Of a stretch of 64,000 bases of DNA, positions 45,676 to 50,774 are shown in pieces. Made by a program: the position numbers and the translations under genes. A model generated the notes under the pieces. It did not search any database, had not been told where the DNA came from, and saw only the letters and a program-made list of their open reading frames with translations. The stretch comes from Terriglobus sp. RCC_193 (lineage in GTDB: Bacteria; Acidobacteriota; Terriglobia; Terriglobales; Acidobacteriaceae), in contig NZ_JBFUPK010000001.1 of the NCBI RefSeq assembly GCF_041355105.1, positions 1 through 64,000 of the forward strand. The letters are read 5' to 3'. How positions within the stretch are numbered: position 1 is the stretch's first letter; every line of letters starts with the position of its first letter.

Positions 45676-45961
45676 CTGACAGGCAATTTCGCCGTTTCCC
45701 CAACAGAAAACGACCCGAACCTTCCTGAAATCGCCTTAAATCCCCAGATCTGCCGCTGACAAACCTCAGGAAAACCGTCGTTACATGCCTGTGGGGTTCT
45801 CCACAAGTAGCTTCCGGCGTTCAGAACCACCAAAATTACTACTACAGGTTGTGGTGGTTATGAAAACCCGTCTACAGGTTTGATTTTCCACAAAGACGCC
45901 AGCGAAGAGGAAAAATCTTCGAATTTCTCTCTTGTGTTTCGCCGCGCTAAGAGAGACGATG

Positions 45962-45996
45962 TGGGCTGTGGTGGGAAAAAGTGGATGAAAGTGTCC
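45962..45996 (+). promoter_or_regulatory. MraZ-binding box
   Basis: TGGGC (45962), TGGGA (45972), TGGAT (45982) and a degraded TGTCC (45992), each ten bases apart with five-base spacers. This is the TGGGN direct-repeat design known for MraZ autoregulation. It lies about 100-130 bp upstream of mraZ. Confidence 0.75.
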
Positions 45997-46532: not shown

Positions 46533-46571
46533 GAAGTTTCGCCCTGAGTGGGCACGCATGGAGGCGGAGAA

Positions 46572-47540
46572 ATGAGCGATCCGCAACATGTGCCGGTTCT
46601 TTTCGAAGAGGTTTTAGACCTTCTCAAAGTGCGCCGCGGAGGAACGTACGCGGATGCCACGCTGGGCCTGGCGGGCCATTCCAGCGCGATTGCGCGCAGG
46701 CTGGGGCCGCAGGGAACGCTGATCGCATTCGATCGCGACCCGCAGGCGATGGAGATTGCAAAGGCCAATCTCGAAGCGTTGCGTGAGGAGCTTGGGCCGG
46801 AGATGCCGCAACTGCGGTTGATCCCGCGGGCATTCTCATCGGCAGCGGAACAGATCGAGCGTGCATCGCTCGATGGCTTGCTCGCAGATTTCGGCGTCAG
46901 CAGCCTCCAGCTCGATCAGGCGCACAGAGGATTCAGTTTTCGGCAGGACGCACCGCTGGATATGCGCATGGATACGCGCAGCGGTGAAACTGCCGGGCAA
47001 GTGGTAAATCAGGCGGACGAAGAAGAACTCGCCAATCTGATTTACGAATTCGGAGAGGAAAGGAGGTCGCGGAGAATCGCCAGAGCCATTGTGAGGGCAC
47101 GGCCGATACTTACCACGGCGGAATTAGCCAAAGTAATATCTGCCGCTGCCCCAGCAATGAAATCGGACAAGATTCATCCTGCGACAAGAACCTTTCAAGC
47201 TATCCGGATTCGCGTGAATGACGAACTCGGAGAGATCCGGTCGCTGCTCGAAAGCGCGCCATCTCTTCTTAAGTTCGGTGGAAGACTTGCGGTCATCAGC
47301 TTTCATTCGCTGGAAGATCGCATTGCAAAAGATGCGCTGCGTGAAGGCGCGCAGCACGGTATTTGGAACGTAATCACTCGTAAGCCGGTGATTGCGACAG
47401 AAGAAGAAGAGCGACGCAATCCAAGGTCGCGCAGCGCTAAGTTACGAGTTGCTGAACGTATCAAACCGGAACGTTCAGAAGTTACAAGGAAGATACCTCC
47501 GCAAGGTGGAAGCAGTCGCGGATATCGTCCTGGAAGATAA
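46572..47540 (+). CDS. rsmH: 16S rRNA C1402 N4-methyltransferase
   Basis: A 322-residue SAM-dependent methyltransferase. HVPVLFEEVLDLL opens it; the SAM site is DATLGLAGHSSAIARRL with FDRDPQAM; GLLADFGVSSLQLD, GFSFRQDAPLDMRMD and ISFHSLEDRIAKD are family marks. It methylates C1402 of 16S rRNA in the decoding centre. ATG 46572 has GGAGGCGGAGA upstream; the frame is open from 46548. A 298-bp gap with strong RNA structure follows. Confidence 0.96.
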   Translation: MSDPQHVPVLFEEVLDLLKVRRGGTYADATLGLAGHSSAIARRLGPQGTLIAFDRDPQAMEIAKANLEALREELGPEMPQLRLIPRAFSSAAEQIERASLDGLLADFGVSSLQLDQAHRGFSFRQDAPLDMRMDTRSGETAGQVVNQADEEELANLIYEFGEERRSRRIARAIVRARPILTTAELAKVISAAAPAMKSDKIHPATRTFQAIRIRVNDELGEIRSLLESAPSLLKFGGRLAVISFHSLEDRIAKDALREGAQHGIWNVITRKPVIATEEEERRNPRSRSAKLRVAERIKPERSEVTRKIPPQGGSSRGYRPGR

Positions 47541-47617
47541 GTCGGTTGAGGAAATTGTGGATAAACCTGTGGACAATGTGAATAACTCCGCAGGAAATCC
47601 ACTTAGGAAGTAAATAA

Positions 47618-47770
47618 CACTCTTCAGCCCCGGTCGTTAGAGCAGATTTCGCTCAGGGGACAAAGAACAAAAGAGTGCGGTGCAACTCCGATTCGGTAAG
47701 TGCAAGTTATCGAATCGGCTCTGGTGATAAGACGCCTTCCATAGCGGAAGGAAGCTGTCTTCGTCCAGAG
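47618..47770 (+). ncRNA. Candidate structured RNA element upstream of ftsL
   Basis: A 153-base segment that pairs with itself almost throughout. Stem 1: CACTCTT (47618-47624)/AAGAGTG (47671-47677), enclosing CCCC/GGGG (47628-47631/47656-47659) and GAGC/GCTC (47640-47643/47651-47654). Stem 2: CCGATTCG (47688-47695)/CGAATCGG (47711-47718). Stem 3: CTCTGG/CCAGAG (47719-47724/47765-47770) enclosing AAGAC/GTCTT and CCTTCC/GGAAGG around ATAGC. It matches no riboswitch that I recognise. It lies in the rsmH-ftsL gap, so it would be a cis-acting intercistronic element. Confidence 0.6.
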
Positions 47771-47838
47771 ATAAGTAAGTGCGAATCAAGCTGGATTTCT
47801 ACCCTGATGTAAGGGATCCAGAGATGGAGAGGGCAGCG

Positions 47839-48354
47839 ATGGAAGCAACGATGACAATACCGGGAATGGTTGCGGGCCGCGCACAGCGCGAACGCGCCGA
47901 GTCGTTTCGAGATCACAATCGCACGGTCTTCGACCAGCAGCGCCGTGCGCGCCGCGGTCCCACGCCTGAAATCTTCTTCACCAAGCATCTGGATAACAGC
48001 CGCATCGTGAAGGCGGATGATCCTGAACGCCGCCGTGAAATGCGTTCTTTCACGGTCGCCATGAGCGTTCTGTTTCTTCTGGTCATGACCTATGTGTGGC
48101 AGCACTTCTCGTCCATTGAAGTGGGTTACAACATCGAAGCGAAGAAGCTGCAGGTGGAAAAGCTTCACGAAGAGAATCGCCAGCTTCATCTGACGGAAGC
48201 GCAACTTTCCGATCCGGATCGCATTGACCGCATCGCGCGTCAACTTGGCCTGGATACACCGCAGCCCGGTCAGGTCGTTCGCCCGGATGGTTCGTTCTCT
48301 AGCTCCGCGCCAGTCCTTGCGGAAGCGCAGGTATCTCCCGCGATTCTCCAGTAA
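47839..48354 (+). CDS. ftsL: Cell division protein FtsL-like
   Basis: A 171-residue bitopic protein: a charged cytoplasmic N-terminus (~75 residues), one membrane helix (FTVAMSVLFLLVMTYVWQHF, ~73-92) and a leucine-zipper-like periplasmic coiled coil (EAKKLQVEKLHEENRQLHLTEAQL, shown in part) followed by DPDRIDRIARQLGL, the FtsL/DivIC ending. It links FtsB/FtsQ with the FtsW-FtsI synthase at the septum. I use ATG 47839, with GAGAGG six bases upstream; ATG 47824 and GTG 47779 are alternatives. Recognition rests on position and layout more than on sequence. Confidence 0.83.
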   Translation: MEATMTIPGMVAGRAQRERAESFRDHNRTVFDQQRRARRGPTPEIFFTKHLDNSRIVKADDPERRREMRSFTVAMSVLFLLVMTYVWQHFSSIEVGYNIEAKKLQVEKLHEENRQLHLTEAQLSDPDRIDRIARQLGLDTPQPGQVVRPDGSFSSSAPVLAEAQVSPAILQ

Positions 48355-48452: not shown

Positions 48453-50774
48453 ATGAATTCCTCCTCACGCCAGCCACTGACCGCTCCCATCCGTCGCATC
48501 CGGTTCGTCTGGATGGCGATTTTTTTCATGGCGTGGACAGGCGTGATCGGGTTGCGTCTGGTGTGGTTGCAGGTCATCCGCCATCACGACTGGACAGAGC
48601 GCGCGGCGAAGCAGCAGCAGCGCACCTTTGAAGTCGCACCGCGCCGTGGCGTTCTTTACGATCGCAACCTCCGCGAACTTGCAGTAACTGTTCTTGCCGA
48701 ATCGGTATACGCAGTTCCGAGTGAATTAGGCGACAACCGCGCCAACGTTGCGGAGCTTGTTTCCGGCATCGTTCACGTGGATCCGACAGATACCTTTACG
48801 TCGCATGGAGCCATCCTTGCGCGCCTCAATGCTTCGCGTAACTTTGCCTGGATCGCACGCAAGCTCACACCGGAACAGGTGCAGCGCATCCGCGAGTTGA
48901 ACCTGAAGGGCGTCTACTTTCAGAAAGAATTCAAACGCTTCTATCCCAACACCGATCTCGCTGCACAAACCCTCGGCTATGTTGGCATCGACGATATCGG
49001 TCTCGGCGGCATGGAACGCGAATTTGAAGATGATCTGCACGGAACACCCGGCCATGTACTGACTGCGGTCGATGCGAAGCGTCATGCATTGACCAGCGAT
49101 GAGCGTGAACCGCTGCCGGGCCAGAACCTTGTTCTCTCCATCGACACCAACATTCAATACATTGCCGAACGCGCTCTGGATGCGCAGATGGAGAAGATGA
49201 AGGCCGCACACGGCACGGTCGTGGTCCAGGACCCGCACACCGGCCACATTCTGGCTCTTGCCATCTCGCCGCGTTACAACCCCAACGACCTGAAGCATCA
49301 GGATCCCGCGATCCTGAAGAACCTCGCCGTCAGCGATGTCTATGAACCGGGTTCTACCTTCAAGCTCGTAACCTATGCTGCCGCGCTGGATGGTGCAGGC
49401 GTACAGCCAACGGACATTGTCGATTGCCAGGGTGGGGCCATGACCATGTTCGGTCGCACACTGCACGACGATAAGTCGGATCACTTCGGCCGTGTCACGG
49501 TCCAGTTTGCTTTGGAGCATTCCAGCGACGTCGGCGCGGCGAAGATGGCATTGAAGCTGGGCAATCAAAAGTTCTACGACTACATTCGCGGTTTCGGTTT
49601 TGGCGATCGTAGTGGCGTAGAGTTGCCCAGCGAAACACGCGGACTGTTGCGCGCGCCGCGCAAATGGGAAGCTACCAGCATCCTCTCCATTGCCATCGGC
49701 CATGAAGTCGCAGTGACACCCATTCAGCTTGTGACGATGGTCTCTTCCATCGCCAATGGTGGAACCTACCTGCCGCCACACATCCTGCTGAATGAAACGG
49801 AACACTCCAAAGGCGATGGCCAGCTTCAACCAGCGGCCTATCATCCTTCCACCCAGGTTCCGGAGAAGCTTCCCGATGGCGCGCACCGTGTCATTACAGA
49901 ACTCACCGCAGCAAAGATGCGGATGATGATGCACGGCACCATCACGGAAGGCACAGGTTCAGAGGCTGCTCTGAACGGGTACAGTGCCGGTGGCAAGACG
50001 GGCACGGCGCAGAAAATTGATCCCGTTACACACACCTATTCGCATTCCAGAACCGTTGCCAGCTTTGCAGGTTTTGCACCGGTGAACAATCCCGCCATCT
50101 CAGTGGCAGTGGTCATTGATGATCCGCAGGTAGGCTCTCGTTACGGTGGCACCACCAGCGCGCCCGTGTTTGCAGAAGTTGCACAGCAGGTGCTGGAATA
50201 TCTCGGTGTTCCGCACGATCAGCCACTAAAACCTGCGAAGAAAGATGCCGCTGTTGCACCGAAAATGGAACTGGCCTCCACAGAAACGCCGAACGAAGAT
50301 CCAGGCGATCTGAATGCGCTGTATGAAGAGTTGAATGCGTTGCCGGCGGATGATCCTCTGAAGCAGAAGAATGATGCAGCAGTTGCGATGGCAACGGCGA
50401 AAGCAGCACCCGTGCAAACTTCCGCGCCGGAGAAGAAGGGCGTCTTCGCTGCACTTCCTGACAAGATCATGAAGGCTTTCCGTGAACATGGCGGCTCTTC
50501 TCTCATGACGGACGAGGCAGAAAGCAAGCCTCTTCCAAAGGCCGCTCCGCAACCGCAAAGTACGACGCGCCGGGATGGAGCCGTTGTTGTAGATGCCAGC
50601 GCAAAGGTTGCGGTCCCCGTGTTGGATGGAGGCCTGCGCTCTGTGATTCAGAAAGCATCTGCAGCAGGTTTGCGGGTGCAGCCCGTGGGCAGTGGGCTCG
50701 CGCGTGAGCAGGTTCCGGCTGCAGGCACCATGGTGCCCATTGGCACAGAAGTTGTGGTGCGGTTCACCCGATGA
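48453..50774 (+). CDS. ftsI: Septal peptidoglycan transpeptidase FtsI (PBP3) with PASTA tail
   Basis: A 773-residue class B penicillin-binding protein. One N-terminal membrane helix (FVWMAIFFMAWTGVIGLRLVW, in part) precedes the pedestal (RRGVLYDRN) and the transpeptidase with Ser301-T-F-K304, a second motif S357-S-D359 (Asp instead of the more common Asn) and K515-T-G-T518. After ~residue 600 comes an Ala/Pro-rich linker and a C-terminal PASTA-like domain (VPVLDGGLRSVIQKASAAGL). It crosslinks septal wall with FtsW. ATG 48453 is chosen over the longer frame from 48396. Confidence 0.95.
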   Translation: MNSSSRQPLTAPIRRIRFVWMAIFFMAWTGVIGLRLVWLQVIRHHDWTERAAKQQQRTFEVAPRRGVLYDRNLRELAVTVLAESVYAVPSELGDNRANVAELVSGIVHVDPTDTFTSHGAILARLNASRNFAWIARKLTPEQVQRIRELNLKGVYFQKEFKRFYPNTDLAAQTLGYVGIDDIGLGGMEREFEDDLHGTPGHVLTAVDAKRHALTSDEREPLPGQNLVLSIDTNIQYIAERALDAQMEKMKAAHGTVVVQDPHTGHILALAISPRYNPNDLKHQDPAILKNLAVSDVYEPGSTFKLVTYAAALDGAGVQPTDIVDCQGGAMTMFGRTLHDDKSDHFGRVTVQFALEHSSDVGAAKMALKLGNQKFYDYIRGFGFGDRSGVELPSETRGLLRAPRKWEATSILSIAIGHEVAVTPIQLVTMVSSIANGGTYLPPHILLNETEHSKGDGQLQPAAYHPSTQVPEKLPDGAHRVITELTAAKMRMMMHGTITEGTGSEAALNGYSAGGKTGTAQKIDPVTHTYSHSRTVASFAGFAPVNNPAISVAVVIDDPQVGSRYGGTTSAPVFAEVAQQVLEYLGVPHDQPLKPAKKDAAVAPKMELASTETPNEDPGDLNALYEELNALPADDPLKQKNDAAVAMATAKAAPVQTSAPEKKGVFAALPDKIMKAFREHGGSSLMTDEAESKPLPKAAPQPQSTTRRDGAVVVDASAKVAVPVLDGGLRSVIQKASAAGLRVQPVGSGLAREQVPAAGTMVPIGTEVVVRFTR

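Follow-up and report, generated by a model that had tools for sequence, protein, structure and literature searches.

What fills the 298 bases between the rsmH stop codon (47540) and the ftsL ATG (47839) in the window, the 64,000-nucleotide stretch of Terriglobus sp. RCC_193 DNA analysed here, and does it serve ftsL? A sequence-only reading had proposed a candidate structured RNA at this site, acting in cis on ftsL expression and perhaps able to switch between two states. The reading that we consider best, at a probability of roughly one half, is that the gap holds a structured, untranslated, lineage-specific ftsL leader found in one group within Terriglobus. Cis control of ftsL by such a leader would be consistent with its position.

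The locus and its predicted fold

The following features are referred to throughout, in their order along the window:

46548-47540, + strand: rsmH (mraW), the upstream gene; Pfam Methyltransf_5, E 8e-100
47556-47585, + strand: three 9-base direct repeats, TGTGGATAA, TGTGGACAA and TGTGAATAA, resembling DnaA boxes and MraZ GTGG repeats
47618-47677, + strand: hairpin A, with a conserved GTTAGAGC-N7-GCTC core; model R3 has a single matching place per genome in all 6 carriers
47688-47718, + strand: hairpin B, 8 perfect pairs (CCGATTCG/CGAATCGG) plus a further arm; two-sided changes at 2/12 pairs
47719-47770, + strand: hairpin C, three-tier, from the fold; alone not significant in the six-sequence alignment
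47783-47798, + strand: hairpin D, GAATC/GATTT in the window and GGAATC/GATTCC in relatives
47791-47821, + strand: hairpin E, CTGGAT/ATCCAG; incompatible with hairpin D, its end 5 bases short of the ribosome site
47826-47833, + strand: ribosome-binding site GGAGAGGG, identified by eye
47839-48354, + strand: ftsL, from an ATG start common to relatives; an FtsL/DivIC-type protein

A gene for a PBP transpeptidase (ftsI) lies downstream of ftsL. The earlier description of an operon whose other genes mostly overlap was overstated: mraZ and rsmH are 15 bases apart, ftsL and ftsI at least 41, and the sole overlap among the operon genes inspected is that of the end of ftsI with its neighbour (50771-50774). 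No sigma-70-like promoter was found on the + strand, and an intrinsic terminator was likewise considered and rejected, no terminator-like site being found on that strand. The stretch around the ftsL start (window ~47817-47853) has three 35-base matches with equal scores in one genome of the T. albidus group (G002:C1:3215054, 4713398 and 5619173).

Hairpins A, B and C lie where they had been claimed, and are present in both the minimum-energy and the centroid folds of 47618-47838; hairpin D is a further one, absent from that first account. The folding energy of this stretch is -75.3 kcal/mol, against a mean of -63.66 for shuffled sequences (z -2.55, 1/200 shuffles as good). The sequence-only reading had recognised no known riboswitch here. 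Rfam 15 (4227 models, including the mraW RNA RF01746), with the gathering cut-off of each family as the criterion, gave 0 matches in the window, and a search of 47500-47900 at E up to 10 returned one chance match only, which scored 12.2 bits where the cut-off is 48.

Distribution within Terriglobus

RsmH is present in 19/19 genomes of the genus, and the rsmH-ftsL stretch was obtained from 18 of them, G009, with its single weak match, being left out. The hairpin-A element lies between the two genes in six of the 18 (G000, G003, G013, G005, G011 and G018). G016 retains the 8-mer GTTAGAGC and little else of the element, G001, G010, G004 and G014 have other sequence in the gap, and short gaps are seen in G007, G006 and the T. 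albidus group (G002, G008, G012, G015 and G017). Run on 11 whole genomes, model R3 for hairpin A matched six, at one place each and always in this gap, with an additional weaker match at the same place on the reverse strand in G003 and G013; run with stricter filters on 200 genomes of the family it matched three, all of them Terriglobus and all at the rsmH-ftsL locus. When 29 RsmH+FtsL sequences were placed in a FastTree tree, the carriers grouped with G016, G014 and G001, through a joining node with a support of just 0.13. Three of the six carrier sequences are near-identical, so that they represent about three independent lineages.

Such a distribution would also suit an ordinary spacer, in which an ancestral RNA was lost and the gap has been drifting, its hairpins being common by descent and of little function beyond the ribosome site. 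Within the genus the gap differs greatly in length and content, 12 of the 18 stretches are without the element, G016 has the look of a near-complete loss, and the single-sequence z is just -2.55. We hold this reading to be unlikely, if a serious contender; against it stand the compensating changes described below and the failure of any of 100 shuffled alignments to fold as well as the real one.

Conservation of structure in the carriers

The gap sequences of the six carriers were aligned (alignment A3), with column shuffles as controls. The consensus fold of the whole gap gave a z of -4.9 for all six sequences and of -6.1 for the five without G018, with 0/100 column shuffles as good in either case. 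Taken alone, the hairpin D region gave z -8.9 (0/200 as good) and hairpin A a weak -1.5 (13/200), and hairpins B and C each showed no signal in the six sequences (200/200 and 122/200 shuffles as good, respectively). Changes on both sides of a pair occur at 6/22 pairs of hairpin A and 2 of the 12 of hairpin B, eight altogether. Hairpin D pairs in all six of the genomes in which it was checked (G000, G003, G013, G005, G011 and G001).

When a given structure was tested on the alignment, 80.7% of cells were paired against 75.8% after shuffling, and the covariation score was 0.189 against 0.112, a value reached by 0/500 shuffles; the number of pairs with a two-sided change (equalled in 62/500) and the number of pair types (476/500) were unremarkable, and since helix 3 was out of register in this test, hairpin D is understated in it. 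In its own alignment hairpin A has 93.3% of its cells paired, with 0/500 shuffles as good, a covariation score reached by 8/500 shuffles, and a number of changed pairs reached by 120/500; folded singly, its sequences take one shape in the three lineages, with different outer stems. The slid controls somewhat favour the tested structures, because these were derived from the same sequences.

The proposal of a structured RNA has thus held up, the fold being kept in relatives with compensating changes and 0/100 shuffled alignments doing as well over the whole gap, and hairpins A, B and D are conserved among relatives with compensating changes, two-sided ones being seen in A and B. Judged by these alignments, the element is a predicted structured cis-leader RNA in the usual sense, with helices kept by compensating changes in about three independent lineages.

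Coding potential of the gap

Translation of the segment had been named as the finding that would speak against an RNA. The longest reading frames of the leader differ from genome to genome. One + frame over hairpins B-E is open in G000, G003 and G013 and closed in G005, G011 and G018; over its 38 codons, 8 non-synonymous and 2 synonymous changed codons separate G000 from G003, and 9 and 2 separate G000 from G013. Translation of the gap was rejected on these two grounds, the closed frames elsewhere and the mostly non-synonymous changes where the frame is open, and the gap is therefore read as untranslated, no frame looking conserved as protein.

On the leader reading, 47618-47838 would be the structured untranslated 5' leader of the ftsL(-ftsI) message. 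Transcription would enter it from one or both of two promoters, that of mraZ and another close to the repeats at 47556-47585, and the folded leader may tune the amount of FtsL through RNA stability or through access to the ribosome site past hairpins D and E. Stable consecutive hairpins within an operon gap would also be expected of a separate small RNA, made or released by the gap and acting elsewhere rather than as a cis leader, and there is precedent in E. coli, for which the excision of small RNAs from messages has been reported (PMC6156199). This we think improbable, the + strand being without a terminator-like site and the most conserved hairpin adjoining the ribosome site.

The proposed two-state switch

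The sequence-only reading had GATTCG (47690-47695), the left arm of its second stem, pairing alternatively with CGAATC at 47711-47716 or with a second CGAATC at 47782-47787, close to the ftsL start codons, and had pointed to GTAAGTGC as recurring at both places. All of these are present in the sequence. With ATG 47839 taken as the start, as shared by relatives, the second CGAATC in fact stands ~50 bases before the ftsL start codon. The switch itself did not survive comparison: the arm at 47690-47695 makes 6, 4, 4, 4 and 3 of 6 pairs with 47782-47787 in G000, G003, G013, G005 and G011, so that the pairing is full in one genome of five, against 6, 5 and 5 of 6 for the local hairpin B arm in the first three and 5 of 5 in each of the last two. 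Neither the repeated GTAAGTGC nor the alternative 6-base pairing is kept by relatives or exceeds chance, and the GATTCG switch was rejected as a mechanism, relatives not keeping the pairing at the second site.

CGAATC at 47782-47787 instead supplies the left arm of hairpin D, whose right arm can alternatively pair downstream, beside the ribosome site, as hairpin E; this is so in G000, G003 and G013 only. If any switch exists, hairpins D and E, each of which precludes the other, would be the better candidate, with both present in just these three close genomes.

Direct repeats after rsmH and upstream of mraZ

Between rsmH and the hairpins lies the array of direct repeats at 47556-47585. The pattern TGTGGATAA-N(1-5)-TGTGG occurs in 8/19 genomes of the genus, once in each and always in the rsmH-ftsL gap, its reversed control having a single occurrence in total, and a TGTGGA(A/T)AA box is found in 11 of the 18 rsmH-ftsL stretches, five of them without hairpin A. 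T. roseus has four exact TTATCCACA boxes, one of them in the rsmH-ftsL gap and one ~0.3 kb upstream of mraZ. Compared with a control pattern, single TTATCCACA boxes are not enriched in G011, G003 or G007 and slightly so in G000. The repeats are spaced at 12 and 9 in the window, and at 11-12 and then ~10 in relatives (by eye).

Upstream of mraZ, GTGG units stand at an exact 10-base period: of the 15 genomes in which the mraZ start was located (that of G013 was not), 12 have three such units and the other three have two. In the window the three units, exactly 10 bases apart, lie at 45961-45984, and 11/14 relatives have the same. This layout resembles that of an MraZ operator. For Burkholderia, the available part of PMC7761207 describes MraZ sites as having a GTG motif and repeats of 7 bases set 3 bases apart; the portion of PMC9395523 at hand gives no MraZ site.

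On these repeats one could build an account in which the functional element is DNA, an array at 47556-47585 bound by MraZ or DnaA that drives an internal promoter, the hairpins being no more than passengers. It would draw on the boxes in stretches lacking hairpin A, on the box pair found once per genome in this gap, and on the 10-base period of the GTGG units upstream of mraZ, which is that described for the MraZ site as far as the text of PMC7761207 was available; it places the array outside the hairpins, leaves their compensating changes unexplained, and has to accommodate a spacing of 12 and 9 here rather than 10 and single TTATCCACA boxes no commoner than the reversed control in four genomes (15/10, 4/6, 9/14 and 8/14). 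We regard it as quite improbable. The gene dnaA lies ~1.09 Mb from the locus in G011 and ~1.26 Mb in G003, which makes a replication origin at the array less likely; GC skew, sampled over 20 stretches, was too noisy to be informative.

A different RNA in neighbouring genera

Most loci of Granulicella, Edaphobacter, Silvibacterium and their relatives carry, in this same rsmH-ftsL gap, a different and much more strongly conserved RNA of ~115 nt, here called the sister RNA. Loci were taken from an FtsL scan of named genomes, as the best 80 of 98 encoding a relative; model R1 matches 56 of these 80 at E < 1e-5 (for example L042:1807-1918) and misses 24, ten of them Terriglobus (L035-L041, L100, L101 and L104) and 14 others. 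Its fold consists of P1 (CGGGCCGGG/CCCGGCCCG) enclosing P2 (GTTGTC/GACAAC), with a near-invariant GTCC..CC and GGCGAAAG. Over 49 sequences, in an alignment that had been fitted to the structure, 8/15 pairs show two-sided changes, 98.4% of cells are paired, and 0/500 shuffles match on any of five measures. R1 is found in 40/299 genomes of the class and 10/106 genera, with one match each; 39 of the 40 are in Acidobacteriaceae, and the single match outside the family, in G253, has an E of 3.2e-5. Model R2 is found in 26/396 genomes of the phylum. Of the 35 loci stored from the R1 and R2 genome searches, all 35 have rsmH on one side and ftsL on the other (L144 and L145 being the same place). Three lineages further removed (L110, L113 and L114) have a small open frame of ~40 codons between the sister RNA and ftsL; judged by eye, it begins MSHLYNF or MSHIYNF and is hydrophobic in its C-terminal half. 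Rfam gave one chance-level match only for 16 relative loci (11 sister-type and 5 Terriglobus).

The sister RNA is likely to form a pseudoknot, between a pyrimidine-rich linker and a downstream purine stretch. It is called likely only because, by eye, the arms and their position change together in divergent members; in a single-sequence test on the 49 sequences the mean score was 16.3 against 14.4 for shuffled flanks, ~36% of shuffles reaching the observed value, and the composition of the two partners, a 5' arm rich in pyrimidines and a flank rich in purines, makes single-sequence tests of this kind weak.

Like the sister RNA, the window element lies between rsmH and ftsL, is structured and is untranslated, whereas the sequence and fold of the sister RNA, with its likely pseudoknot, are different. 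Membership of the window element in the sister family was rejected, R1 and R2 finding nothing above chance in Terriglobus gaps: with filters off on 16 Terriglobus loci, the best in-gap match on the + strand was at the chance level of ~9 bits (L012; E 1.6 with R1 and 3.9 with R2), and neither the R1 search of the class nor the R2 search of the phylum matched any listed Terriglobus genome. With both models blank there, the ancestral RNA has probably been lost in Terriglobus, and the window element would be a newcomer or else a descendant changed beyond recognition. Of the two RNAs, the sister RNA makes the stronger and more novel case.

Relation to known RNAs

The mraW RNA motif lies upstream of mraW. 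In the available part of its description (Weinberg 2010, PMC2864571; Rfam RF01746) it is assigned to Actinomycetales. Like the window RNA it is structured and associated with the rsmH (mraW) part of the division cluster; the window RNA differs in lying downstream of rsmH and in another phylum, and RF01746 is unmatched in the window and in 16 relative loci. Acido-1 (RF01686) and Acido-Lenti-1 (RF01687), listed in the same portion of that paper as not cis-regulatory, are also structured RNAs of Acidobacteria, and neither has a match in the window or in the 16 relative loci tested. Among the open-access papers on RNAs of this kind, in the parts available, none has an RNA between rsmH and ftsL, and the same open-access literature yielded no published name or description for the sister RNA; the available portions of PMC11109978 and PMC6429828 make no mention of acidobacter, granulicella, terriglobus, ftsL or mraW.

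Possible implications for division in Acidobacteriaceae

A broader and decidedly tentative proposal, on the doubtful side in our own estimate, is that Acidobacteriaceae control ftsL by leader RNAs that lie outside the libraries searched. An ancestral, probably pseudoknotted RNA, marked by its near-invariant motifs, would serve in several genera, where it might act as a riboswitch that senses a wall precursor or a growth signal; in Terriglobus the site would have passed to an element that is unrelated or has diverged completely. In well-studied bacteria FtsL counts among the divisome proteins that are limiting. A conserved RNA fixed before ftsL across much of the family would, if true, be a direct handle on how division is set in these soil bacteria, and the degree of conservation of the sister RNA would suffice for screens for a ligand or a protein. 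If the proposal is true, Terriglobus would also present a case in which an operon lost one RNA and a different sequence came to fold at the vacated site.
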